From: Candidatus Tetragenococcus pullicola
GTDB taxonomy: Bacteria > Bacillota > Bacilli > Lactobacillales > Enterococcaceae
Length of the DNA stretch: 64,000 nucleotides
Reading direction: 5' to 3'
Assembly: GCA_019115705.1 (NCBI GenBank)
Contig: DXDB01000160.1
Location: 1-64,000 of the forward strand
Part shown: one piece after another, positions 7,749 to 55,780 of the stretch
Position numbering within the stretch: position 1 is the stretch's first letter
Layout: the number at the start of each line of letters is the position of its first letter
Made by a program: the position numbers and the translations under genes
The notes under the pieces: generated by a model
Databases searched by the model: none
What the model saw: only the letters and a program-made list of their open reading frames with translations
What the model was told of the DNA's origin: nothing

Positions 7749-8621
7749 TTGAAAAAAATACAAGTACAGAATAAAAAACGGTTATTAATTTGTAGTGATG
7801 CTAAAAATGAAGCGGATGATCCATTTGCAATTGTCCATGCGCTTTTGACAGAAACTTTTGATGTCCGTGGATTGATTGCGACTCATTTTCGTGAGAAAAA
7901 TTCAAATGAAAAATCTTATCAAGAAATTATCCGCTTAGTGAAGCTAGCAGGTAAAGAGAACCAAATTCCGATTCTTCTAGGGGCAAAAAATGCTCATATG
8001 GAAAGTAAGAAAACTACAGCTTTTATCAAAAAAGAGATAGTAAAAGCCTCAAAGAAAGAGCCATTATTTATCCTATGTTTAGGTGCACTGACAGATGTTG
8101 CCAATGTTATAAAAGAGGCACCGGAGAACCTAGAAAATGTTGTCATTGTTTGGGTTGGAGGAGGACGATATCCACAGGGAAGTCAAGAAGCCAACTTAAG
8201 AAATGATATTTGGGCTGCAAATCAAGTATTCTCTTCCAATATGACAATTTGGCAAATACCGAGTCAAGCCTATAAAACCTTAGTTGCGCCTGTCTCAGAG
8301 TTAGCACTAAAAGTAGCAACTCAAGGGAAGTTAGGGCAGTATCTTTATGATCAGTTAGTAGATTTTGCCAATGAATTTGCAAGTGCAAAACCTTGGATAA
8401 ACTCTGAATGTTGGGTGCTGGGTGATTCTTCTGCAGTTGGTGTTTTATTGGATGAACAAAAAGGTTATTATAGGATGTCAACAGCGCCTTGTTTTAAAGA
8501 AAATTGTGAACATGATTTTAAGCCTAATCAAGACAAGCGCAAAATTCGTGTCTATCAACAATTAAATACGAGAATGATTCTGGAAGACTTCTTTGCAAAA
8601 CTGGCCTTACATAATTTGTAA
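7749..8621 (+). CDS. Nucleoside-hydrolase-like (IUNH/DUF1593 superfamily) protein, TTG start
   Basis: LLICSDAKNEADDPFAIVHALL and ILCLGALTDVANVIKE motifs. Confidence 0.75.
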   Translation: MKKIQVQNKKRLLICSDAKNEADDPFAIVHALLTETFDVRGLIATHFREKNSNEKSYQEIIRLVKLAGKENQIPILLGAKNAHMESKKTTAFIKKEIVKASKKEPLFILCLGALTDVANVIKEAPENLENVVIVWVGGGRYPQGSQEANLRNDIWAANQVFSSNMTIWQIPSQAYKTLVAPVSELALKVATQGKLGQYLYDQLVDFANEFASAKPWINSECWVLGDSSAVGVLLDEQKGYYRMSTAPCFKENCEHDFKPNQDKRKIRVYQQLNTRMILEDFFAKLALHNL

Positions 8622-12251: not shown

Positions 12252-15200
12252 ATGGCTAGAATTAGACGGGTAATAGTAGGAATGATAGGCTTATTTTTAT
12301 TGACAACAGGAGGTGCTACCGTAAATGCCAAAGAGCAACAAGAGATTACTTTAGAGGAAGATGCATTTGTCTCATCGTTTAACAACCAGAATGATCAAGT
12401 CATGATAGAAAGTAATGATAACAAAATAATTGTTGGAAAAGGAAGGCATGCTTTTTATAAACTGAATTTGAAAGAACTATCAAGTGATTCACTAGATAAG
12501 GTTACGTTAAATTTAGCTAAATCTCATGCTGCAAATACTTTAGTTTATAATGAAGCTTCGAACTTTTTACGTTCTGATGATGGTAAGGAAGGTGACGAGG
12601 AATGGACTGCTGATAATATAACTTTTAATAAACGCCCTATTAATTTAGATAATAGCAAAAAATACACACATGCATTAGATAAAAGCGGCGAGTATGATAT
12701 TTCTTTAGATGTAAGTGAAATCGTGAAAAAAGCAATAAATGAAAATAGAAATGTTATTACAATCCATATTACGACAGAAGAAGTAGAAGATTCGACAGTT
12801 AGTGCTACGGAATTTTATTCATCAAGGTCAGGTAAGAAACCTTATATTGCTATTTCTAAAAAAACAGATGAGCAACCAATCGAGATAGTTGGAAATGATA
12901 TTGGAGATTATACAACGAATAGTTTTTTACCAATTGGTTATTACAAGATAAAAGATCCGAAAAATTCATCACATTATGTCAGTACAGATGGGAATGGAAA
13001 TATTCAATTTGTTAAAGATTCTAATCAAGCGGAAGTTTTTTCTATATATAAGTCAGAAGCTGTGGAAAGTATAAAAGGGAATATTGACTCAACTTTTGCT
13101 ATTCAATCAACAGAAAATGGTAAATTTTTAACAATTCAACTCTATTTTAATTCTACAGATGATGATAAATCATATTACAATAAGTTAGATGAAAATAATT
13201 TTTATCTCAACTTCTCATCACCAAGAGTTAACTATAATGAGCGATTCAAATTAACGTTTTTTGAAAAAAGTAATAGAGTAACAATTGCCTCTCATCTAGA
13301 TACATTACGAGATGAAGAAAGTAAGAATGATTTTTACTTAAGCTCTTCAGAGAAAGGATTAACGACATCAAGAAATCAGCGCAATCCTTATTATTTTGAA
13401 TTAGAAGAATCGAATCATTCAGGCCCAATTGTTGTTACCAATGATGTTTATGGGGATGAAATGATTGTTTCTTGGAAAGCTGTTCAGGAAGATGATGACA
13501 TCAGTGATTATAAAATCAGTTCTGGAACGTCGATTATACAAGAAGGAGACTATTTTCAATCCACTATTCCTATAAATCAATTGGATGAAGAGAATTCAAT
13601 TGTTGTTAACTACAATAATGAGAATATTCAAGTAAGTGGTCAGACAAATTTTAAAAGTTTTACTCACCCAGGAATCCAATTAAATAATGAGAACCTACAA
13701 AATATGAAACAACATATTCAAGATAAAGAAGAACCATGGTATAGTGATTATTTAAAATTGAGAGATAACGTTCCCAACCAACAAAGTTCTGTAGATTATG
13801 TGACTAATGTTCATGAAGGAGTAGGCCGAGGCGATCCAGCAGGTCACGGGAATATCGGCGACTTTGAAAAAGCAGGAAATGCTGCTTATTTCAATGCCTT
13901 ACAGTGGGTAATAACAGGAGAAGATAAGTTTGCTAAAACAGCTACTAAAATATTGAATAGTTGGTCTAGCGAATTAAAAGTAATCGATGGTCGTGACCGT
14001 ATTTTAGGCGCTGGAATCAATAGTGTAAAATTAATTGAAGCTGCTGAAATATTGGCTTACTTTGATGGCGGATATGATGACTTTACAATGGAAAATCAGA
14101 GCCAAATGCAACGCATGCTAAAGAATGTTGTATATCCAGTTATTGAAGACCTAGGTAGTCCGATGATAGCCAATGGGAATTGGGATACAGCGGCTATGAA
14201 TGCTATGATTGCAATTGGAATTTTTACTAACGATCAAGAAATTTTCCAAAGAGCGATTGACCTTTATCAAGACACTCATATAAATGGATCAATCAGTGTG
14301 TATGTCAGTGATAGTGGTCAAAGTGTAGAAAGTGCTCGAGATCAAGCCCATGCACAGTTGGGCATCGGCTATATGGCAGCAACAAGTCAAGCTGCTTATA
14401 ATCAAAATATTGATTTGTTTTCACTTTACGATAATCGCCTTGCAAAAGCTTTTGAATGGGCGGCAAAATACAACCTTTATGAAGAAGTTTCTTTTACGCC
14501 ATTAATGAATGTTTTTCAAGATACTAAGCGAGGTTATTGGACTATTTTAGATAGTGAAAAAATTAATCGTGGCGAATTAAGACCAGTTTATGAACAAGTC
14601 CTTGCTCATTATCAGAATAAAGGAGTAGATATGACTTGGACAGAAAAAGCAGCTCGTGCTATGCGTTCAGAAGGATTGGTTCATAATGACAACTTAAATT
14701 TTTCAACACTTACATTTTACAATGGAGAAAAGTATGAAAGTGCACCAAGTCCTACTTTTAAAATAAGAACTCGTCTTGAACCTTGGTATGAAAGAAACTT
14801 GCAATTTGAAGATGATAAACCAGTCTATGAGACGTTGAGTTCATACTACTCACTATCAAATAATGATGAAATATCAGCAAACAAGCAAAGAGATAATGCT
14901 GATGTCTTTCAGTTGATTGCTAATGAGGATGGAACGTATGCGATATTAAATCAAGAAAATGGAAAATATCTATCAATCAAGGAAGAATTGAACAAAGAAG
15001 GAAATAACTTGTTGAAGGCTGATGCTACTAAAATAACAGATAGTGAGAAGTTTAATGTGATGGGGACTGGCGTTGGCTGTATGTACCTTGAATCACCAGC
15101 TTTTTCAAATCGTATTGTTACGACTACAGTTGAAAATGAGAAAGAGCCAGAAAATGCTAATTTAGTTCTATCATTAGGATCGAACCAAACGGATGATTTT

Positions 15201-15515
15201 GCTTCTGTTACTTTAAATGATCGTTTAATCTTCCATTATCTTGATGATGAAGAAGCATCAATTTTACCAGAATCTATTAAGTTAAATGCAACTGGAATAA
15301 AAACGTTGAAAAAAGGAAAACATATAGAACTTTCTCCAGAAATAACCCCAGAAAATGCTACAAGTAAACATATTGAATGGGCGTTTAGTAGAGAAGGTAT
15401 TGTTGAAATTGATGAAGACAATATATTGACAGCTAAAAAGCCTGGTATTACGAAAGTAACTGCGAAAACAGTTAATGGTAAATCAGCCACGGTAACAATC
15501 CGAGTGACAAAATAA
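12252..15515 (+). CDS. Large secreted alginate-lyase-superfamily polysaccharide lyase (lyase A): signal peptide, DNRLRE/CBM-like N-domain, alpha/alpha-toroid lyase domain, C-terminal Big_2-like domain
   Basis: Signal peptide MARIRRVIVGMIGLFLLTTGGATVNAKE; GNWDTAAMNAMIAIG and QSVESARDQAHAQLGIGYMA motifs; C-term SIKLNATGIKTLKKGKHIELSPEITPENAT...VTIRVTK. Confidence 0.8.
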   Translation: MARIRRVIVGMIGLFLLTTGGATVNAKEQQEITLEEDAFVSSFNNQNDQVMIESNDNKIIVGKGRHAFYKLNLKELSSDSLDKVTLNLAKSHAANTLVYNEASNFLRSDDGKEGDEEWTADNITFNKRPINLDNSKKYTHALDKSGEYDISLDVSEIVKKAINENRNVITIHITTEEVEDSTVSATEFYSSRSGKKPYIAISKKTDEQPIEIVGNDIGDYTTNSFLPIGYYKIKDPKNSSHYVSTDGNGNIQFVKDSNQAEVFSIYKSEAVESIKGNIDSTFAIQSTENGKFLTIQLYFNSTDDDKSYYNKLDENNFYLNFSSPRVNYNERFKLTFFEKSNRVTIASHLDTLRDEESKNDFYLSSSEKGLTTSRNQRNPYYFELEESNHSGPIVVTNDVYGDEMIVSWKAVQEDDDISDYKISSGTSIIQEGDYFQSTIPINQLDEENSIVVNYNNENIQVSGQTNFKSFTHPGIQLNNENLQNMKQHIQDKEEPWYSDYLKLRDNVPNQQSSVDYVTNVHEGVGRGDPAGHGNIGDFEKAGNAAYFNALQWVITGEDKFAKTATKILNSWSSELKVIDGRDRILGAGINSVKLIEAAEILAYFDGGYDDFTMENQSQMQRMLKNVVYPVIEDLGSPMIANGNWDTAAMNAMIAIGIFTNDQEIFQRAIDLYQDTHINGSISVYVSDSGQSVESARDQAHAQLGIGYMAATSQAAYNQNIDLFSLYDNRLAKAFEWAAKYNLYEEVSFTPLMNVFQDTKRGYWTILDSEKINRGELRPVYEQVLAHYQNKGVDMTWTEKAARAMRSEGLVHNDNLNFSTLTFYNGEKYESAPSPTFKIRTRLEPWYERNLQFEDDKPVYETLSSYYSLSNNDEISANKQRDNADVFQLIANEDGTYAILNQENGKYLSIKEELNKEGNNLLKADATKITDSEKFNVMGTGVGCMYLESPAFSNRIVTTTVENEKEPENANLVLSLGSNQTDDFASVTLNDRLIFHYLDDEEASILPESIKLNATGIKTLKKGKHIELSPEITPENATSKHIEWAFSREGIVEIDEDNILTAKKPGITKVTAKTVNGKSATVTIRVTK

Positions 15516-15531
15516 GAATAAAGGTGACAAA

Positions 15532-16141
15532 ATGAAGAAAATTTTGCATATTGGTTCGACGCTTTACACAATACTAATGATTGGTTTGGTCGCCAAAACC
15601 CTATTTTGTACTTTTTTCCATTTTAAAAACGTTGATATGAAGCCTTTTTAAGATAGTGAAAATGGAACTTTGAGGTTTTGGCTACCTAACCATGATTGGG
15701 TTTATTGGCTTTTTTATAGGGATACGACTCAACGGTGGTGAAGGGATTGGCCCCTGGCAGTTTCGGGCAGTCTTATCGGAAAGTATGCAAGAAACTTATC
15801 CTGTAGGAAGTTTGCTTGTCACAAAGCAAGTTCCTATCAAGGATATAAAAGAAGGCGATGTCCTTTCAATGCAAATAGGAGAGACTGTTCTTTCTCATCG
15901 AATTGTTCATAAATTTAGACAAGAGGATGACTATGTTTTTCAAACAAAAGGAGATAGTAACACGAAAAAAGATCCTTTTGTAGTAAAAGAAAATCAGATA
16001 TTAGGGAAGGTAGTCTTAGGTATTCCTAGCTTGGGGAAGTTTTTGTTAAAACTTCAAACCGCGAATGGAAAAATTGCTTTCTTTTTACTATTGATTGAAC
16101 TTTATTTGTTACAAACCTTTATCAAATTAATTTGGAGTTAG
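15532..16141 (+). pseudogene. sipW: SipW-type signal peptidase I gene interrupted in its N-terminal TM segment by a MITE-like insertion; downstream ORF 15692-16141 remains open
   Basis: ATG at 15532 encodes MKKILHIGSTLYTILMIG..., then insertion; resumes MIGFIGFFIGIRLNGGEGIGPWQFRAVLSESMQ...LSHRIVHKF. Intact paralogue at 49469 shows continuity. Confidence 0.8.
15585..15691. mobile_element. ~107-bp MITE-like insertion with imperfect terminal inverted repeats and 8-bp target duplication
   Basis: TIRs GGTCGCCAAAACC (15588-15600) / GGTTTTGGCTACC (15674-15686); flanking ATGATTGG at 15577-15584 and 15692-15699. Confidence 0.82.
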
Positions 16142-16153
16142 GAGAAAAAATAA

Positions 16154-16867
16154 ATGAAAAATAAATTAAAAACGTTGATGCATAGTAAATTAGTAAAAGT
16201 AATTATTACAGGAGTTGCGATAGGGACGGTTGGAATCGGAAGTACGTATGCTTGGTGGACTGCAGAATCAGAAGCTGCGTATACCGTAAAAACAGGGAAA
16301 ATGAATGTAAAAGCTGACTTTACAAATATTGAAAATGAAACAGGGTATGAACCAGGATTGTATGTAGAAGGCGATGGAACGATCATGAATACTGGTAGTG
16401 TGGATGCTTTAGTAAAAGTTTCTGATAATAGTAAAATAAAATTTGCCTACGACACAGACGAAAATGCGATCCCTTCTGATGCACGTGTTTTTGAAGAAGT
16501 GGATCCATCAGCAATCGTAATGGATATTTTACCGACTATCGATGATTCACAAGAGGATGCGTTTTGGTATACAGGAAGCAATGGTGATTTATATGTATTA
16601 ATGATTCCAGGCTCTCAAGTGAGTACCCATGTGACACAAAATTTTCTTGGGGATAAGCTAGACAATCGTTATATGTCGGCAGTAGTAAATACGAAACTAA
16701 AAGCAAATGCTACTCAAGCAATCGAAGAGGCAAGCCTTGCTAATTTTGATGAGAGTATGGAGAATTTAACACCATATGATGGTAACCCAATGGATAAGAC
16801 TTTTTCTACAAACGACTATGCAACGCGAGCTATGGAATTTTTGAACGACATGACTAATAAAAAATAG
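16154..16867 (+). CDS. TasA/camelysin-like exported protein with SipW-dependent signal peptide (copy 1)
   Basis: KVIITGVAIGTVGIGSTYAWWTAESEAAYTVKTGKMNVKADF: SipW-type signal and N-terminal TasA-like motif; directly downstream of sipW. Confidence 0.82.
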   Translation: MKNKLKTLMHSKLVKVIITGVAIGTVGIGSTYAWWTAESEAAYTVKTGKMNVKADFTNIENETGYEPGLYVEGDGTIMNTGSVDALVKVSDNSKIKFAYDTDENAIPSDARVFEEVDPSAIVMDILPTIDDSQEDAFWYTGSNGDLYVLMIPGSQVSTHVTQNFLGDKLDNRYMSAVVNTKLKANATQAIEEASLANFDESMENLTPYDGNPMDKTFSTNDYATRAMEFLNDMTNKK

Positions 16868-45435: not shown

Positions 45436-48400
45436 TTGCATAAAAATTTTCAACGACTAATCATCGCAACACTTGCTGTCTGTTCACTTGTAGTGTCTTC
45501 TAAAGCTACTTTTGCCACAGAAACTACTGAAGTAAATGAACAAGTCAAATTGAACATCACAAATGAAGAAGGTTTTGTACATCCTGGAATCAGTGTGGAT
45601 CCAAACCAACTAGAAATAACCAGAAAAGAACTTATTGATGGGAATTCTGTATATAAAAAGTATTATGAAGCCATGAAGCAGACAGATGCTGCAAATAAAA
45701 ACTTTGGTTCAAGCAATTTAAAAGAAGGGACACTTCATGAACCCAATATTCCCGCCTATGAGAATAGTACGCAAACCATGCGTTTAAGTAGGGATAGTTT
45801 TAAAGCGTATACACAGTCTATTTTGTATTATCTGACAGGAGATAGTACCTATCGCTACAATGCTATGAGGTTAGTACGTATTTGGTCACAGATGGATCCA
45901 GAACAATTTGAATACTTTCCCGATGCGCATATTCATGTCCCTGTTCCTGCCTATTATTTGATTAGTGCAGCGGAGATGTTGAAATATACCGAAGCGGTTG
46001 AGGCAACCTATAGTGATGATGAAGTGAACGATTATGGATTAGAATGGACCAAAGAAGATGATGAAAATTTAGTCAATCACTTTATTGATCCTGCTCAAAA
46101 AGCTTTTTACAATCGCAATGATCATTATATGAATCAACATTTGTATGCAATCACAGGAATTATGGCGACGGCTATATATAAAAATGATCCTGAAATGTAT
46201 CAAACAGCAGTGGAATGGTTTACTGTAAACAAAGATACCCAACAACCTGAACGAAATGGTGCTTTGAGTCATCAGTATTCTTTAATCAAGGCTGACCAAG
46301 AAGGAAACCCGATTGGTAAAGATTATATTCAGCATTTGGAAATGGGACGAGACAATGCCCATTCTTCAGGTGATGTCTTGAATATGATTGGTCTTGCTAG
46401 AATTTTGACGCAACAAGAAACTTTAGTGGATCCTACCACAGGAGAAGCATCTAAAGAGGGCGTATCTATTTATAAGTTTTTAGATGATCGTTTATTGGAA
46501 GGAACAGAGCAATGGGCTAAATTTATGGTTGGCCAAACCATTCCTTGGACAAAAACAGGTGGTGGGATGGATTTTGGTGGCGATATTTCACCAGCCTATC
46601 GAGGTAGAACTAGCCTTTATTATAGCAGTACCGAGCTTTATGATCGTTACCGTTTTGGTGAAGGTATGTCTGAAAAAGACTTGGAAGAAAAAGCACCGAC
46701 GTTAAGTCATATGGCTAAAAATCAAGCAGCAGCTCGTTTTTATTCGGGTTCAGGACTCAATAACTTTTGGGGCTCGCATTCAGATAATAAAATGACAGAA
46801 ATTGGTGCAGAGTATTGGTTATCTATGCCTGTCGATCGAACCAAAGATCAAGCGCTTAGTGTGCCAGAAACGCCCGATACATCGGAAGTTTCATTTGTGG
46901 CTCGAGGCAGCATTTTAGATGAAGATAAAACACAAATTCAAACAGAGAATGGGAAAACTTTTTTCAGAACGCAAGCAGTAGCCTCTCAAAAAGAGCTGAA
47001 AGAAACAGCTTATAAACGCCTTTATCCCAATGATGAGACGACTAAACCTGGGGGCAACCATTTTTCTGTAGCCAGTCTGTTTAAAAATGATAATATGGCG
47101 ATTTCCTATCGTTCTAATGGTGAAGCAAAATTAATGTTATCTGGTGCCAATGACTTCAGTCAACCGCATTCTCAAATTCTTTTACCAGATACTTCTGGTC
47201 AATGGAAAACAATCGTATATTCAGCCAAAGATGTGATGAATAATCGTACGGCCAATCTTTCAAATCTTGACTTTTACGCAGTTCTTTCAGACGAAAAAGA
47301 CGTGCAAGTCGATTTTGAATGGGTTAACTATGTCAATGAAGGCGATGGGATAAAAGGAACCGTCCCTATTTATGGAGAGTCTTTTAGTAAAGAACATCAA
47401 TTATTAAAAGGTGATAACGTGACATTCGATGTGGACATAGAAACACCAAAAGAAGCCACAATTTCTTTTGGCAATCAATCAGAAGGTCTCTCCATTGACG
47501 GAAAAACGGTCACTGTAGACTCAAATAAATTAGAAGACGGTCTTACGCGTGTCTTTCTTATTGTAGAAGATGATCTGTTTATTTCAGCAAGAGAGCTCGT
47601 TTTTAATGTTCATCAAGATCCACAAAGTGCCTTTGATGAAGCTATGAAAAAATATGATTCGAACTTGATTTACACAAATGTTTCTAAGGAAAAATTTTTG
47701 AAAGAAAAAGAAGCGGTAGAACAATTATTGAAGTCAGAAGTTTCTACTGAAGAGTTCTTGAAAGCTTATGAGCAATTCTTAGAGGCCTTGGAAGGATTGG
47801 AATTATTAAATCCAAGGGTAGAAAAAGACCAATCCTTTAATTATGCAGCGTATCCTTCAATTTTACCAGGGAATACGAATGCGCCTAATCTATTAGATGA
47901 CGATGATGGGACCCATAGTGGTGACCTAAGAGGACCTTACTATTTTGATTTTGGACAAAGTTACCGAATGACGGCCAATAAATTCCAAATGCAAACCAGA
48001 CGAGGCTTTGCAAACCGTTATCAAGGATTTAATATTTATGTTTCGAATGATAATAAAAACTGGACGAAAATCAACGAAAATGAAACAACGCAAACTGACG
48101 AGATGGAAACCATTCGTGTAAAAGACGAATATAAAAAATTGCCTTTCCGCTATATTATGTTACGTTGTGACAATCCAGGCGTTCCAACAGATCCGGCGTA
48201 TCCAGGAATCAGTTCATTTGGTGAGTTTCGGATTTATGGGGAACGCTCTGAAGTAAATGACAAGATTTCAAATATAACAATGAAAAATTCTGGGTTGAAG
48301 AATATGATTTTACCTGGCGAAAAAGTAAGTCTTGAGATTGAAGCAACGGAAGAAATTTCAGATGTCAAGGTTCAAATGAATGATCTAAAAGCAGAAGTTT

Positions 48401-49449
48401 CAAGCGAAGATAACATTCACTGGGTAGCTTCTATCATTTATCCAAAAGGACAGGGATTTGGTTCAGAGATACCTATTCAATTGGATTATAACGATGCTTC
48501 AGGTAATCCGGGAGAAACTGTCTATGAAACAAGTAAAAAGCAAGAGTTTTATATTTCGGATGATACCAATCTAATTAATGATGCTTTTGATCGAGTAACC
48601 AAGACCAGTAATCGTTCACCCAAAGATACTGCAGCATGGTTTGATCAAGATGTTTCTACCATGTCTGAATTTGCCAAACAAGCGGATGGACAAACCTTTG
48701 TTGAATTTGATTTTTCGGATGGACCAATCAAAGTCGATCGAATTGAATTTTTAGCACGTCAAGACCAGTATGCCAATCGAGCAAAATATTATCAGCTGCA
48801 AGCATCACAAGATGGAAAAACATGGGAAGATATTGCGCCATGGGGGAAAGATACCCAAGATTGGCAAGCCTTTATTCCTGATGACAAGCATAAAGATACC
48901 GCCTATCCCTATCTTCGCTTGTACATGTGGGCCAACCATTTGGGGATCACTGAGTTAAGAATTTTAGGCGAACAAACAGAAATGCCTGTTGAAGTCGATA
49001 AATCAGAATTAGAAGAAAAAATAAAAGAAGCACAAGCACTTACTGACGATGATTACACGGAAGAAAGCTGGAAACACCTTGAAGAATCACTAAATCAAGC
49101 CGAGTCTCTTTTTGAAAGTTCTTCAGTCAATCAGGAAGAAATAGATGAAGCCGTTGTTTCTTTAAATAAAGCCATCGAAGCCTTAGTCAAAAAAGAAATT
49201 CCAGTGGAAAATTTATCATTAAGTGTAAAAGGAATCCAGACAGTGAAAGTTGGTCAAACGTTAGCGTTGACACCAACTATCACACCTCCAAATGCGACCA
49301 ATCAAACCATTGACTGGCAATTTAGTAAAGAGGATGTTGTCTCTATAGATGAAGAAAATATTGTGACGGCTGAAAAGACTGGAATTTGTAAGATAACCGC
49401 AAAAGCGGGCGAAAAAAGTGCAATTGTGACGGTACGTGTAACAAAATAA
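45436..49449 (+). CDS. Giant secreted alginate-lyase-superfamily protein (lyase B, 1337 aa) with F5/8C-like, FIVAR-like and C-terminal Big_2-like domains
   Basis: Signal peptide; HPGISVDPNQLEITRKELIDG..., DSTYRYNAMRLVRIWSQMDP lyase-type repeats; two discoidin-like segments; EEKIKEAQALTDDDYTEESWKHLEESLNQAE FIVAR; LSLSVKGIQTVKVGQTLALTPTITPPNAT...VTVRVTK. Confidence 0.8.
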   Translation: MHKNFQRLIIATLAVCSLVVSSKATFATETTEVNEQVKLNITNEEGFVHPGISVDPNQLEITRKELIDGNSVYKKYYEAMKQTDAANKNFGSSNLKEGTLHEPNIPAYENSTQTMRLSRDSFKAYTQSILYYLTGDSTYRYNAMRLVRIWSQMDPEQFEYFPDAHIHVPVPAYYLISAAEMLKYTEAVEATYSDDEVNDYGLEWTKEDDENLVNHFIDPAQKAFYNRNDHYMNQHLYAITGIMATAIYKNDPEMYQTAVEWFTVNKDTQQPERNGALSHQYSLIKADQEGNPIGKDYIQHLEMGRDNAHSSGDVLNMIGLARILTQQETLVDPTTGEASKEGVSIYKFLDDRLLEGTEQWAKFMVGQTIPWTKTGGGMDFGGDISPAYRGRTSLYYSSTELYDRYRFGEGMSEKDLEEKAPTLSHMAKNQAAARFYSGSGLNNFWGSHSDNKMTEIGAEYWLSMPVDRTKDQALSVPETPDTSEVSFVARGSILDEDKTQIQTENGKTFFRTQAVASQKELKETAYKRLYPNDETTKPGGNHFSVASLFKNDNMAISYRSNGEAKLMLSGANDFSQPHSQILLPDTSGQWKTIVYSAKDVMNNRTANLSNLDFYAVLSDEKDVQVDFEWVNYVNEGDGIKGTVPIYGESFSKEHQLLKGDNVTFDVDIETPKEATISFGNQSEGLSIDGKTVTVDSNKLEDGLTRVFLIVEDDLFISARELVFNVHQDPQSAFDEAMKKYDSNLIYTNVSKEKFLKEKEAVEQLLKSEVSTEEFLKAYEQFLEALEGLELLNPRVEKDQSFNYAAYPSILPGNTNAPNLLDDDDGTHSGDLRGPYYFDFGQSYRMTANKFQMQTRRGFANRYQGFNIYVSNDNKNWTKINENETTQTDEMETIRVKDEYKKLPFRYIMLRCDNPGVPTDPAYPGISSFGEFRIYGERSEVNDKISNITMKNSGLKNMILPGEKVSLEIEATEEISDVKVQMNDLKAEVSSEDNIHWVASIIYPKGQGFGSEIPIQLDYNDASGNPGETVYETSKKQEFYISDDTNLINDAFDRVTKTSNRSPKDTAAWFDQDVSTMSEFAKQADGQTFVEFDFSDGPIKVDRIEFLARQDQYANRAKYYQLQASQDGKTWEDIAPWGKDTQDWQAFIPDDKHKDTAYPYLRLYMWANHLGITELRILGEQTEMPVEVDKSELEEKIKEAQALTDDDYTEESWKHLEESLNQAESLFESSSVNQEEIDEAVVSLNKAIEALVKKEIPVENLSLSVKGIQTVKVGQTLALTPTITPPNATNQTIDWQFSKEDVVSIDEENIVTAEKTGICKITAKAGEKSAIVTVRVTK

Positions 49450-49468
49450 GGTAAAAAGGTGACAAACA

Positions 49469-49963
49469 ATGAAGAAATTTCTGCATGCTTGTTCTAGTCT
49501 ATATACAGTATTTATGCTGGGTTTGCTACTGCTGACTCTGTCGATTCGTATGGGTGGTGGCAATGCTCTGGGACCGTATCAATTCCGAGTAGTTTTAACC
49601 GAAAGCATGCAGAATACTTTTCCAGTAGGTAGCCTGCTGATTAGTAAGCAGGTTCCTATTGAAGAAGTGAAAGAAGACGATGTTATTTCGATGTCAGTGG
49701 GTGGGACTGTTTTATCCCATCGTGTGGTTCATAAATTTACACAGGATAACCACACTGTTTTTCAAACCAAAGGCGATAGCAATCAACGCAAAGATCCCTT
49801 TATTGTTAAAGAACAGCAAGTATTGGGAAAAGCTGTTTTAGCAATTCCGTGGATAGGAAAAATTCTATTAAAATTGCAAACGATAAATGGGAAAATCGCC
49901 TTTGGTTTATTTTTGATTGAAATCTATTTGTTGAAAGTTTTTATCCAATTAATTTGGAGTTAG
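49469..49963 (+). CDS. sipW: SipW-type (ER-type Ser/His) signal peptidase I, intact
   Basis: LGPYQFRVVLTESMQNTFPVGSLLISKQV; VLSHRVVHKF; TKGDSNQRKDPF. Confidence 0.9.
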   Translation: MKKFLHACSSLYTVFMLGLLLLTLSIRMGGGNALGPYQFRVVLTESMQNTFPVGSLLISKQVPIEEVKEDDVISMSVGGTVLSHRVVHKFTQDNHTVFQTKGDSNQRKDPFIVKEQQVLGKAVLAIPWIGKILLKLQTINGKIAFGLFLIEIYLLKVFIQLIWS

Positions 49964-49972
49964 GAGAGGAAA

Positions 49973-50686
49973 ATGAAAAATAAATTAAAGACGATCATGC
50001 ATAGTAAATTGACAAAAGTAATTATTACAGGAGTTGCTATTGGATCTGTGGGTATCGGGAGTACCTATGCCTGGTGGACAGCAGAATCAGAAGCTACTTA
50101 TACAGTAAAAACAGGTAAGATGAGTGTGAAAACGGATTTTACCAATATTGAAAATCAAACAGAGTATGAACCAGGCTTGAATGTTGAAGGGGATGGAATA
50201 ATTACCAATACAGGATCAGTGGACGCATTGGTTAAGATTTCAGATAACAGTCAGATTAAATTCTCTCGTGATGAAAACGGCGATGTCATTGCTTCTGAAG
50301 CACGTGTTTTTGAACCTGCTGACAAAGAAGCGATTCAAATGCAAATCACACCACAAATTGATGAATCCATAGACGATGCTTTTTGGTTTCAAGGGAAAAA
50401 CGGTGATTTGTATGCTTTGATGATTCCTGGTTCCGAACTTGTGGCTAATATTCAACAAGATTTTTTGGGTGATCAGATGGATAACCATTATATGGCTGCT
50501 GTTGTGAATACCAAACTAAAAGCAAATGCTACACAAGCAATTGAAGAGGCAGTTCTTTCAAATTTTGATGAAAGCATGAATGATTTGGTTCCGTATGAAG
50601 AAAGTTCAGATGTTAAAACTTTTTCTACAAGCGATTATGCAAGTCGAGCAATGGACTTTTTGCATAAAGTAATGGAAAAACAATAA
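49973..50686 (+). CDS. TasA/camelysin-like exported protein with SipW-dependent signal (copy 2)
   Basis: VIITGVAIGSVGIGSTYAWWTAESEATYTVKTGKMSVKTDF; close paralogue of 16154-16867. Confidence 0.84.
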   Translation: MKNKLKTIMHSKLTKVIITGVAIGSVGIGSTYAWWTAESEATYTVKTGKMSVKTDFTNIENQTEYEPGLNVEGDGIITNTGSVDALVKISDNSQIKFSRDENGDVIASEARVFEPADKEAIQMQITPQIDESIDDAFWFQGKNGDLYALMIPGSELVANIQQDFLGDQMDNHYMAAVVNTKLKANATQAIEEAVLSNFDESMNDLVPYEESSDVKTFSTSDYASRAMDFLHKVMEKQ

Positions 50687-50744
50687 AAGCACGAACCACT
50701 TATTTCATTTCACTTAAAAATTGAAAGGCAGGGGATATTTTTTA

Positions 50745-52841
50745 ATGAAAAAAAGAAGCAATATCATATTACTAAAAGGCTTGATACTAGGGACTGCTTT
50801 CTTCTTTAATCCGGTCGCTGCTACTGCTCAAGAAAATGGAGAAGACATGATTCGAATACAAGCGGAAGATTACACGAAGATAACAGGAAATGTAACAATC
50901 AGAGAAAATGGGGAAGATTTCCCCATAAAAGGCGGAGACAACGAAGATACAGAAAAGACAACGACGATGTATTTAGAAGATGCTGAAAATGGTCAGTTTT
51001 TAGATTTCAGTGATCCAATTACAGATATTTCATCCTATGAACATACAATTCCTGAAGGACAAGATAGTGCTAGCTGGAAAGTGAACGTTTCAAAGACAGG
51101 AGTTTATAAGCTGACTTTTAGCTATAACAATCCAGCAACCGCTTGGGATGGTCATCGCAATGCGCGAGATGAACGCAATTGTCGCATTGTGATCAATAAT
51201 GAAGACAATCTATTATCAGACGACGGTTGGGTTGGTTGGATGATTTTCAATGTTTCAGGATATAATGATCCGACTTACGATCAGTCAATACTTCAAGAAC
51301 CTTCAACAGTTACAGGAAATAAAGTTTGGAATGAAAACTACATGAATGTCTATTTAGAAGAAGGCGAAAATACAATCAGTTTAGCGATTCAAGCACCTCC
51401 CGGCCAAGCTGTTTTTGATGGCCCTAATCTAGATTATATCGATTTAGAATATCTTCAAGAAGATTTTGTTTCAGAAGAAGAGATTCCATATTTGACAGCT
51501 GATCATTCATTTAAGCATCCAGGAATTTTTTACACGCGGGCTGATTTAGAACGCATTAAAGCCAATAAGGAAGACTTGACAACGGTCGAAGGGAAAGGCT
51601 ATCAAGAAATTTTGGAAAGTGCACACTCCAGTGCAGAGTATCAGCCAAATCCTGTTCAAAAAATTGATGTGGGCCCTTATAATAACCCTAATATCGGTGG
51701 GACAGAGTTTACCAATGATGGCAATGCCGCTCATTACAATATATTGCGTTGGTATATGGATGGTGAGGTCGAAAATGCTAAAACCGCTATTAAAATTTTA
51801 AATGAATGGGCATCAACTTTAACCGAAGTGACTGATGGGAATGATTTGAAGTTGCGCTTTTCTTTGGTAGGGCCTGATTTTGTGAATACGGCTGAGATAT
51901 TAAAAAATATTTATAATAATGATCCAACTATCAATGAAGAAGACAAGTGGCAAGAAGAAGATATAGCTAAATTTGACTCCTTTTTAAAAAATCATTTACT
52001 AGAGAAAACTAGCAGTTTCTACCCACAAGCCAATGGGAATTGGGATGCTTTGATTGGTGCTTTTAATATGGCCAGTGCAGTTTATCTTGAAGATATTGAC
52101 CTATTTAATAAATCTTTACGACAGTTCTACTTAGGAAATGTCACAGGTGGCAATGTTTCTTCAATGGGTGCCTTACCCAATTACGTATACTCAAGCGGAG
52201 AATCACAAGAAAGTAGTCGGGACCAGACGCATGCCAGAATGGGTATTTCAGGATTAGCCTATCAATCTGAAGTCGCCTGGAATCAAGGCCTTGATATTTA
52301 TGGTGCCTATGAAGATCGCTTACTTATGGGAACATTATATAGTGCTTCTTATGTAACTAATCATTCTGTGGAATCTAATACCTTTATTTCTGATAAAAAT
52401 AGAAATCAAGCAGATATTTCCTCAATGGTCTATGAAATCGTAGGAAACCATTATAAAAACGAAACGCAAACGGATCAAGAATTGGATGTAATTGATCAAG
52501 CAGCCGCAACGACTTTAAGAGAAGTGACAACTGTAAATGAAGGCAAACAAAAAGCCTCTTACTTTGGTGCTATGCTCTTTTCAACCACACCGCCAGAGTC
52601 AGTGAAGTTAAATTATACGGGAATAAAGACCATCAAAAAAGGAAAAAAATTAGAGCTAATTCCCGAAATTTCTCCGATAGGCGCCAATTCATCTAATATC
52701 CAATGGTCCTTTAGCAAAGACGGAATTGTCGAAATTGATGAAACAAATAGACTTAAAGCCAAATCGGTAGGAATTACCAAAGTAACGGCAACAACAACTA
52801 ATAATAAAACGGCAAGTGTAACGATTCGAGTAACAAAATAG
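50745..52841 (+). CDS. Secreted alginate-lyase-superfamily protein (lyase C) with N-terminal CBM6/35-like and C-terminal Big_2-like domains
   Basis: Signal peptide; IRIQAEDYTKITG CBM-like; HPGIFYTRADLERIKANKE; ANGNWDALIGAFNMASAVYLED; SSGESQESSRDQTHARMGISGLAYQSE; C-term ...VTIRVTK. Confidence 0.82.
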   Translation: MKKRSNIILLKGLILGTAFFFNPVAATAQENGEDMIRIQAEDYTKITGNVTIRENGEDFPIKGGDNEDTEKTTTMYLEDAENGQFLDFSDPITDISSYEHTIPEGQDSASWKVNVSKTGVYKLTFSYNNPATAWDGHRNARDERNCRIVINNEDNLLSDDGWVGWMIFNVSGYNDPTYDQSILQEPSTVTGNKVWNENYMNVYLEEGENTISLAIQAPPGQAVFDGPNLDYIDLEYLQEDFVSEEEIPYLTADHSFKHPGIFYTRADLERIKANKEDLTTVEGKGYQEILESAHSSAEYQPNPVQKIDVGPYNNPNIGGTEFTNDGNAAHYNILRWYMDGEVENAKTAIKILNEWASTLTEVTDGNDLKLRFSLVGPDFVNTAEILKNIYNNDPTINEEDKWQEEDIAKFDSFLKNHLLEKTSSFYPQANGNWDALIGAFNMASAVYLEDIDLFNKSLRQFYLGNVTGGNVSSMGALPNYVYSSGESQESSRDQTHARMGISGLAYQSEVAWNQGLDIYGAYEDRLLMGTLYSASYVTNHSVESNTFISDKNRNQADISSMVYEIVGNHYKNETQTDQELDVIDQAAATTLREVTTVNEGKQKASYFGAMLFSTTPPESVKLNYTGIKTIKKGKKLELIPEISPIGANSSNIQWSFSKDGIVEIDETNRLKAKSVGITKVTATTTNNKTASVTIRVTK

Positions 52842-52859
52842 AAGGTTGTCAACGATTAA

Positions 52860-52915
52860 ACATAGGAGAAGATTGAGATAGTGATTGTCTATCGAATCAA
52901 CTCCTATGTTTTTTG
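52860..52915 (+). terminator. Terminator after lyase C
   Basis: ACATAGGAG ... CTCCTATGTTTTTT. Confidence 0.65.
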
Positions 52916-53830
52916 ACTATTCTCGAATTTCAACTAGCAAATAAGATTTACAATCACCAGTTACAAAACTAAAAGCTTCCGGTGCAGAAAAAATCTATTC
53001 TTAAAAATATACTGGTGCAAAAAATATGGCAGACCAAAACGATGTCTGAATGATAAATATTTGATAGATAAAATAACCTACAGAGAACTATGCACCAGAG
53101 TTGTCTGTGTTTCAGTAAAATATAAGTAAGGAGTTTTTATATGGATTTTTTTTAAAACTATAATCAATTTTGTTGTCTTTTAGCGTTTACTAACTCCGTT
53201 AATTCAAAAGTTCATTCCAATTAATGCATGAATTTGGCCGTTTTACTATTAAAACTGAAAGAGATATGATAATAGAGTTAAAGCCCTCATTGAAGCACTT
53301 AATACATTATCAGATAAAGTACTTGAAATGAGGAACAGTTAAGGAGATGTTCATGGCTCCGGCAGAATAATAATCAAGGAAGAAGCAATACCTGCTGAAT
53401 ATTTTTCTTTGATTTTATGTAATTATATTTTTACTAAGTATGAAACGTTAAACAAAAAATAGAAGTAATTTATGTTGCAAATGGCTCTTTATCAAATAGT
53501 GAAGGCTTTAGAAAATCATATAAAAAAAGGACTTCGCTTCTTCTTCAATACATCTATTCTAATAGAAAAAAATTTTCTAACAAAATTACAAGAAGCCCGA
53601 GTGTCAACAAGTTTTGGTTTTCCGAAAGTAACGCAGACAAATGGCCAAAGCGTACATAAATTATAGAAAGCATTGGACGTAAATAAAGTTTCGTTCTTTT
53701 TAGAAAATATAAAATTAAGACACGAATTATGCCAATGAGTCTACCTACTTTTGTTGTTTCCTATGATAAACTAATGGTAGTCATCACTAAATAATCTTAA
53801 AAATGCTTAAATAGAAAGGAAGGAACGGAA

Positions 53831-55780
53831 TTGAAAGTAAGAATTAAAGATGAATTTTGGGATAAGAGAATCGAAGTTGTTCAAAAGCAAATGTTACCCT
53901 TTCAATGGCGCGTTTTAAATGATCAAGAAGAAGGCGTCGAAAAATCAGGTGTTATTCATAATTTTAAGATTGCAGCAAAAGAAGCCGAAGGAACCTTTCA
54001 CGGAATGGTTTTTCAAGACACTGATTTATACAAGTGGCTAGAAGCAGTCGCTTATTCATTAGAAATAAAAGAAGATAAACAATTAGAAAGCTGGGCGCAA
54101 GAAGCCATTCGTTTAATTGCTAAAGCTCAACGAGAAGATGGTTATGTTAATACGTATTTTCAAATCTTTCAACCTGATTTAGAATGGACGGATTTGACCG
54201 ATAATCATGAATTGTATACCTTTGGCCATTTAATCGAAGCAGGTGTTGCCTACCATGAAGCAACTGGCGATGAAATGATTTTGACTGTTGTAAGAAAAGC
54301 GGCGGATTTGTTAGTCTCTAAATTCGGTTATGGAAAAACACAAGGTTTACCTGGTCATCCCGAAATAGAACTGGCGTTGTTACGTCTTTACCATCTGACA
54401 GAAGAAGAAAACTACTTAGAATTGGCCAAATATTTTATCTTAGAACGAGGCAAAAAACCTAATTATTTCATTGAAGAGCCTAAAAAACGAATCGAAAAGA
54501 AGATTCCTTCCTGGCTTGATGTGATGTGGAATGAAGGGTTTGTTCGTCCTGTGCATGAAGGAACAGAAGATGTTTCTTATTATGTGGCGTCCAAACAATT
54601 AGTTGATCAAATGGTGGCAGAAGGACATGCTGTTCGTGCTTGCTATTTGTATACCGCTTTGGCTGATCTTGCGTCTTTAAGAAATGATTCCGAATTAAAA
54701 GATGCTGCCGAACGTTTATTTGATAATACCACGACAAAACAAATGTATATTACAGGTGGCATTGGACAAACTTGGAAAAATGAAGGGTTCACTCATGACT
54801 ATCATTTGCCTAATGAAGATAACTATTGTGAAACTTGTGCCGGGATTGCCTTAATTTTTTGGGCAGAAAAAATGCTTTTGATGGAAACAAATAGCAAATA
54901 CACGGACGTGATCGAACGAACGCTTTATAACAATACCTTAGGATCCATGAATTTAGAAGGAGAGTCCTTTTATTATCGTAATGAATTAGAGCGTGCTGGA
55001 AAAGATGTCAAAAACGCTGGCCGTCCGGGTTGGTTTGGTTGTGCATGTTGTCCACCAAATTTGGCACGTTTAATTCTTTCGTTGAATCACTATATTGCCC
55101 ATTATGGAAAAAATGGGAACATTCTCTATCTTGACCAATTTATCGGTGCCACAATTCAAGGCGAAACAAACGAAGGTACCTATCAACTTGTCCAGGAAGC
55201 AAACATGCCTTGGAATGGAAATATCAAGGTAACCTTACAACAATTTCCTGAAAAAATGAGACTAGGCTTGCGTCTTCCAGAATGGAGTGCGTCTTTCCAA
55301 CTGAAAGTAAACGAGGAAACGATGATAGAAGGCGTTGATTTTACTATTAATCGTGGCTACATTATTTTCAATCATTCCTTATCAGAAGGCGCAGTCATTG
55401 ACTATGTGCTTGATCTTCAACCACGATTGGCCTATGCTAATACACTTGTAAAAGCAGATGCTGGAAAAGTCGCTATTACTCGTGGTCCTATCGTTTATTG
55501 CTTGGAAGAAGAAGATAATGGCAATCATCTCTGGCAACTAGCCTTTAGGGAAGGGACAATCTTTACGGAACAAAAAACAAGTGAGTTACAGGGAATTGTT
55601 CGCTTGAACAGTGAAGCTTTACGCGATGAAAGCTTAACGCATGGCTTGTATTCGTATCAAGCGCCAAAAAAGAAACAACAAAGCATTTCAGCCATTCCTT
55701 TTTATGCACGGTATAATCGTAGTGTAGGCGAAATGCAAGTTTGGCATCGTGTCGCTGACGGAGATGGAAACAATAAATAG
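53831..55780 (+). CDS. GH127 beta-L-arabinofuranosidase-like protein
   Basis: VRIKDEFWDKRIEVVQKQMLPFQWRVLND; NYCETCAGIALIFWAEKML; GWFGCACCPPNLARL (Cys-rich Zn/catalytic motif). Confidence 0.95.
   Translation: MKVRIKDEFWDKRIEVVQKQMLPFQWRVLNDQEEGVEKSGVIHNFKIAAKEAEGTFHGMVFQDTDLYKWLEAVAYSLEIKEDKQLESWAQEAIRLIAKAQREDGYVNTYFQIFQPDLEWTDLTDNHELYTFGHLIEAGVAYHEATGDEMILTVVRKAADLLVSKFGYGKTQGLPGHPEIELALLRLYHLTEEENYLELAKYFILERGKKPNYFIEEPKKRIEKKIPSWLDVMWNEGFVRPVHEGTEDVSYYVASKQLVDQMVAEGHAVRACYLYTALADLASLRNDSELKDAAERLFDNTTTKQMYITGGIGQTWKNEGFTHDYHLPNEDNYCETCAGIALIFWAEKMLLMETNSKYTDVIERTLYNNTLGSMNLEGESFYYRNELERAGKDVKNAGRPGWFGCACCPPNLARLILSLNHYIAHYGKNGNILYLDQFIGATIQGETNEGTYQLVQEANMPWNGNIKVTLQQFPEKMRLGLRLPEWSASFQLKVNEETMIEGVDFTINRGYIIFNHSLSEGAVIDYVLDLQPRLAYANTLVKADAGKVAITRGPIVYCLEEEDNGNHLWQLAFREGTIFTEQKTSELQGIVRLNSEALRDESLTHGLYSYQAPKKKQQSISAIPFYARYNRSVGEMQVWHRVADGDGNNK

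Follow-up and report, generated by a model that had tools for sequence, protein, structure and literature searches.

The window analyzed here, bases 1–64000 of the 69.5-kb contig DXDB01000160.1, belongs to the 2.6-Mb Lactobacillales genome of Candidatus Tetragenococcus pullicola, whose same-family relatives carry Enterococcus names (E. diestrammenae, E. lemanii). It contains two paralogous sets of genes, in which giant secreted enzymes adjoin a SipW-type signal peptidase and a TasA-like protein: lyase A-sipW1-tasA1 (12252–16867, set 1) and lyase B-sipW2-tasA2-lyase C (45436–52841, set 2). An earlier examination of the letters, made without database searches (the sequence-only reading), had described set 2 as a candidate fibre-displayed lyase system, and its account of four genes in this order on the + strand with short gaps was confirmed by the open reading frames (ORFs): lyase B (45436–49449, 1,337 aa), sipW2 (49469–49963, 164 aa), tasA2 (49973–50686, 237 aa) and lyase C (50721–52841, 706 aa). 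The likelier start of lyase C is the in-frame ATG at 50745 (698 aa), which is preceded by a better ribosome site. The gaps measure 19 bp, 9 bp (sipW2-tasA2) and approximately 35–58 bp, and as a simple scan for terminator-like sites gave none on the + strand between the four genes, they might form one transcript.

The two central genes proved to be what the sequence-only reading had taken them for. The sipW2 product passed the TIGR02228 model (endoplasmic reticulum (ER)/archaeal type) with 64.3 bits (cut-off 51.85) and is an intact ER/SipW-type signal peptidase that keeps the Ser46-Met47 and His84-Arg85 pairs, including the catalytic Ser and His, which are invariant in the aligned orthologues. 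TasA2 exceeded both the gathering cut-off of the Pfam family Peptidase_M73 (PF12389, TasA/camelysin; 28.0 bits, cut-off 22.5) and the cut-off of the SipW-cognate signal-peptide model TIGR04088 (25.8 bits, cut-off 19). The enzymes were a more uneven case. Lyase C, with a PF05426 domain (39.2 bits), is a clear family member, while lyase B, with a PF05426-like domain, two F5/8C domains and FIVAR, scored 21.4 bits, just under the cut-off of 22.2; thus, the label "lyase" is less secure for B. Lyase B does, however, match lyases A and C at 20–21% identity over about 340 aa. The solved-structure search returned no catalytic-domain relative of lyases B and C, its gp120 matches being at chance level. 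The lyases showed neither an LPXTG motif nor a lipobox, in agreement with the sequence-only reading, and no SLH domain either.

Set 1, which the sequence-only reading had overlooked, lies on the same strand and begins with lyase A (12252–15515, 1,087 aa), composed of a signal peptide, a DNRLRE domain, Fascin/ricin-like stretches and a PF05426 domain (residues 488–742). It ends with tasA1 (16154–16867, 237 aa), whose product has a SipW-type signal peptide, is 71% identical to TasA2 and scored 20.5 bits on TIGR04088 (passed) and 22.4 bits on M73, just short of the cut-off. The gene between them, sipW1 (15532–16141), is split by an insert of 107 bp (15585–15691), which has inverted ends, resembles a miniature inverted-repeat transposable element and is flanked by the 8-bp target repeat ATGATTGG at 15577–15584 and 15692–15699; the 3′ part of the gene encodes a sequence with 66% aa identity to SipW2 in the alignment. 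Two more copies of the insert were found in the genome, one 100% identical (contig C187:5885–5991) and one 87% identical (C126:4911–5014). Unless the assembly is incomplete here, both TasA-like proteins must depend on the sipW2 product, as sipW1 is broken and the SipW profile matched the genome at the two window sites only. A search of the whole genome detected no M73/TasA-like or SipW-like genes beyond these two pairs.

A further feature missed by the sequence-only reading is a Big_2 domain common to all three lyases (Pfam PF02368; 24.4, 28.0 and 23.5 bits for A, B and C, gathering cut-off 22.8). It occupies residues 1005–1087 of A (Pfam/NCBIfam), 1255–1337 of B and 624–706 of C (Pfam), and the profile built for this terminal tag reached the last residue in each of them, with 120.1 bits in A (15264–15512), 101.5 bits in B (49198–49446) and 112.6 bits in C (52590–52838), all on the + strand. 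The three domains form one subfamily that finishes in the motif [ILV]R[VI]T[KRPN]. Pairwise identity among the three lyases is 43–68% in the tag and 20–32% in the catalytic parts, so the tag is far better conserved than the part it accompanies, which is the opposite of what is expected of a passive appendix.

The distribution of the TasA-like protein was then compared with that of the tag. Of 400 Lactobacillales genomes, 12 matched its profile at E ≤ 2.3e-58, and the next best match was at 6.4e-13 with nothing between. Sampling of the class (396 genomes) and the phylum (398 genomes) yielded no further family member, nor did phages or another family of the order represented by 79 genomes (f4). 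Judged by these profile searches, the protein belongs to a distinct family that, among the genomes sampled, occurs in Lactobacillales alone, with E66, P67, G68, G75, N79, G81, S93, F113, Q188, A193 and L230 as its invariant residues after the signal peptide. The named carriers are Enterococcus sp. 5H, E. diestrammenae, E. lemanii, Vagococcus salmoninarum, V. acidifermentans and V. fluvialis, and the gene was also present on three plasmids, two of E. faecium and one of L. paracasei, which brings the family to 16 genes in 15 records (12 genomes and three plasmids). Since the family had no match in 7–8 congeners of the window genome, the cassette is sporadic and probably mobile. Strong matches to the tag profile (E ≤ 5.5e-28) were obtained in all of these 12 genomes and in no others, always next to a TasA-like gene; the next-best match (3.2e-19) was in an ORF adjoining genes judged phage-like by eye. 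A single-sequence search of plasmids with the tag gave no match although tagged plasmid genes exist, and it is too weak to count. In one of the E. faecium plasmids (L090, CP138458.1), frame breaks were observed both in the tag of the glycoside hydrolase family 53 (GH53) enzyme and in tasA, due to decay or sequencing error.

A lack of conserved co-occurrence in other genomes had been named by the sequence-only reading as a result that would refute it, and the outcome favours the reading: all 16 TasA-like family genes were found to adjoin a giant secreted enzyme with the same terminal Big_2 domain. This linkage rule had been stated after the first six loci, and the next eight records, which were found through the TasA-like protein alone, all obeyed it; as some of them are close relatives of earlier loci, the independent successes number about four rather than eight. 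The catalytic parts of the tagged enzymes differ widely between loci and include GH33 sialidases, GH43, GH53 galactanases, GH85, GH92, GH101, a rhamnogalacturonan lyase of polysaccharide lyase family 11, PF05426 lyases and a purple acid phosphatase (the enzyme of G173 is 55% identical to a GH43 enzyme), and two genomes carry several tagged enzymes per one or two TasA-like genes. The catalytic part is thus exchangeable, with Big_2, SipW and the TasA-like protein as the constant components. Consequently, the conserved linkage backs the display idea of the sequence-only reading, whereas its restriction to lyases has to be given up, because the catalytic domain changes while the other three components stay.

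The specificity of the tag was assessed by leaving each of ten related groups out of the tag model and rescoring its members. The tags of nine groups obtained 72.8–116 bits, above all unrelated Big_2 domains of the comparison set, the best of which reached 66.6–70.3 bits; the exception was the L. paracasei group, which at 62.4 bits fell below unrelated Big_2. The arginine of the terminal RVT motif was present in 17/17 tags and in only 2 of the 24 other Big_2 domains having a residue at that position.

Two further components occur at other loci. A secreted protein of approximately 90–125 residues is encoded just before sipW in nine of the 15 loci, and just before tasA in a tenth one that has no adjacent sipW; it consists of a short hydrophobic-alternating N-terminal stretch starting with Y-F/L or F-F and an acidic tail rich in Thr, Ser and Glu. 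Four loci encode, after tasA, a protein of about 200 aa with an LPxTG-like signal (LPATG at one locus and LPQTN, LPKLG and LPKTS at the other three). At 8446–11587 of L088, a family member accompanied by a tagged purple acid phosphatase and the small protein has no adjacent sipW.

One of the closest known systems is tapA-sipW-tasA of Bacillus subtilis, where a SipW-type peptidase likewise adjoins a TasA/camelysin-family protein with a SipW-type signal; the small secreted protein of the nine related loci occupies the position of tapA with another sequence. Unlike the Bacillus operon, the loci described here carry giant exoenzymes sharing one terminal domain, and the window has no tapA-like gene upstream of sipW. 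The BsaA-type SipW clusters of Enterococcus and Clostridium perfringens (TIGR04090) also combine SipW with SipW-dependent matrix proteins, and those of Enterococcus include a large secreted protein and an LPxTG protein as well. However, where the cassettes have one TasA-like protein and an enzyme with a Big_2 tail, these clusters contain several BsaA-like subunits and a vWA-like giant (in the one scanned), and the window proteins scored 26.7 and 22.8 bits on TIGR04090, far under the 60-bit cut-off. BsaA-type clusters of Enterococcus genomes (L042–L046) were tried as members of the TasA-like family and rejected, as they reached 16.8–39 bits compared with the 238–338 bits of the family, of which a broken plasmid copy scored 132 bits. 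In these control clusters, a vWA giant or some other large protein takes the place of the tagged enzyme, and a C-terminal tag is lacking, although one cluster has an internal Big_2 domain at 45 bits. The separate multi-gene SipW cluster of four Enterococcaceae (L042, L043, L045, L046) encodes BsaA-type subunits together with a giant protein, which is vWA-like in L042, and an LPXTG protein similar to EF0750; it gives the impression of a surface fibre that bears a large adhesin. In L085 (11598–18320), the Big_2-enzyme SipW cassette is followed immediately downstream by a cluster of the BsaA type.

We consider it somewhat probable that the locus is a modular display cassette, in which a TasA-like fibre or oligomer holds enzymes by their terminal Big_2 domain. 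SipW would cut the special signal peptide off the TasA-like protein, which would then assemble outside the cell, either into a donor-strand fibre like that of Bacillus TasA or into a shorter oligomer. The giant exoenzymes would leave by ordinary Sec signal peptides and be captured by the TasA-like protein through the C-terminal Big_2 domain, this proposed contact being the best supported mechanism, and the captured enzymes would stay at the cell surface beside the transporters that import the products. Donor-strand fibre assembly of TasA has been published (PMC9674648). According to PMC10151520 and PMC9674648, tapA precedes sipW in B. subtilis, residues 44–57 from the N-terminal part of TapA suffice for biofilm formation, and TapA has been proposed as the donor of the first strand. 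By analogy, we propose that the small protein of approximately 100 aa encoded before sipW or tasA at most other loci is a minimal TapA that could donate the first strand, and the LPxTG-like protein of four loci may fix the base of the fibre. A Foldseek search with the TasA2 model returned the TasA fibre (8aur) third by E-value among 350,542 chains, with a probability of 0.98 over the full length, which is consistent with the TasA jelly-roll fold but is not a proof of it. The arrangement recalls the cellulosome, where a common non-catalytic tag (dockerin) places different enzymes on one scaffold (cohesin); in the cassette the tag is Big_2, the proposed scaffold is a TasA-like polymer, and no dockerin or cohesin Pfam domain was present in the scanned enzymes or TasA-like proteins. 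Sortase-anchored pili and LPXTG enzymes are further examples of enzyme display on the Gram-positive surface, but the lyases have no sorting signal, the LPxTG-like signals being on the separate protein of about 200 aa, at four other loci only. A more ambitious version, which we regard as tentative and somewhat doubtful, is a mobile plug-and-play display of Lactobacillales, a Gram-positive counterpart of the cellulosome, with a TasA-like donor-strand fibre, a mini-TapA start, an LPxTG-like base in some species and any enzyme with an RVT-type Big_2 domain as cargo.

Several points weigh against display on a fibre. The physical contact, the fibre and the retention at the surface are all deduced from genes, and Big_2 domains elsewhere bind many things. 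The match of TasA2 to 8aur has a TM-score of only 0.31, the model itself having a pLDDT of 73 with residues 1–47 below 50. No small TapA-like gene was seen in the gaps of either window set, and no homologue of the LPxTG-like protein was detected in the genome at E ≤ 1 with a four-row model that lacked validation on a second genome. Some of the sequences in the tag profile came from the genomes in which it was then found, a circularity corrected by the leave-out test alone. Finally, the distances of tag and TasA-like protein correlated (r = 0.44) through close relatives only, and as the correlation disappeared after dereplication (r = −0.05), co-evolution adds no extra support.

The linkage data would also fit if the TasA-like protein were a non-fibrous adaptor, that is, a small oligomer located at the membrane or wall, where it retains the exported tagged enzyme or helps it fold. 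This is the main rival explanation, and the presence of one TasA-like gene per enzyme set and the lack of a separate TapA-like protein in the window suit it. Nevertheless, it seems unlikely, since Bacillus TasA, CalY and C. perfringens BsaA form polymers or matrix (PMC9674648, PMC13082335, PMC7395162), and the small gene in the place of tapA at most loci suits a polymer initiator. The same genes could also work in parallel, the fibre serving adhesion or biofilm formation on the substrate and Big_2 binding a glycan or the cell wall by itself, so that they travel together due to shared substrate use. C-terminal Ig-like domains are indeed common in secreted enzymes, and the Big_2 stretch of a beta-1,3-glucanase (7quz) is among the nearest solved structures. 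We judge this to be rather improbable, because the same tag spans enzymes for mucin, N-glycan, galactan, pectin and sialic acid, and it would remain unexplained why one RVT-ended Big_2 subfamily accompanies this TasA-like family only.

Mere hitchhiking, i.e., co-inheritance on a mobile cassette of parts that do not work together, would account for the sporadic distribution with three plasmids and no match in the congeners, as well as for the lack of a co-evolution signal. On the other hand, Big_2, SipW and the TasA-like protein remained together through many replacements of the catalytic domain, and a fused gene would not keep one of its ends constant by pure hitchhiking; the probability of this explanation is therefore low. 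The least probable explanation, which we hardly credit, is that the TasA-like protein acts as a camelysin-type (M73) metallopeptidase trimming or activating the enzyme. Although it matches a Pfam family named after the camelysin metallo-endopeptidase, that family includes TasA, a structural protein, and the invariant residues listed above show no evident metal site such as a histidine pair.

TasA-type fibres are known as components of the biofilm matrix. If they also carried a swappable, dedicated enzyme cargo, as the display cassette would imply, they would have a nutritional role, and it would be explained how lactic acid bacteria hold very large exoenzymes for mucin, N-glycans, galactan and pectin without a sortase signal; the tag would moreover offer a ready-made docking domain with which surface display could be engineered in food-grade bacteria. 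SipW, TasA and Big_2 are each already known. No description of an enzyme-carrying TasA-type locus was found in the open literature (titles, abstracts and selected passages, with subscription journals and preprints mostly outside the search), and database annotation places plasmid genes for a "TasA family protein" beside those for "GH53" or "GH92" proteins without comment. Taken together, the loci suggest a new, interchangeable way of holding enzymes outside Gram-positive cells.

Besides the two sets, the window is full of carbohydrate-use genes (GH31, DUF2264, GH88, two of melibiase type, two GH43, GH28, GH127 and GH42) and encodes a mannose-type phosphotransferase system and an ATP-binding cassette importer. 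This gene content points to a plant-type polysaccharide containing uronic acid as the substrate. The GH127 protein (53831–55780) is related to aceric acid hydrolase, with 382 bits against a cut-off of 950 that was not reached, which hints that the substrate is pectic, either rhamnogalacturonan II or a different one. The stretch of approximately 1 kb that separates the GH127 gene from lyase C (52841–53831) contains no long ORF and may be a decayed gene.

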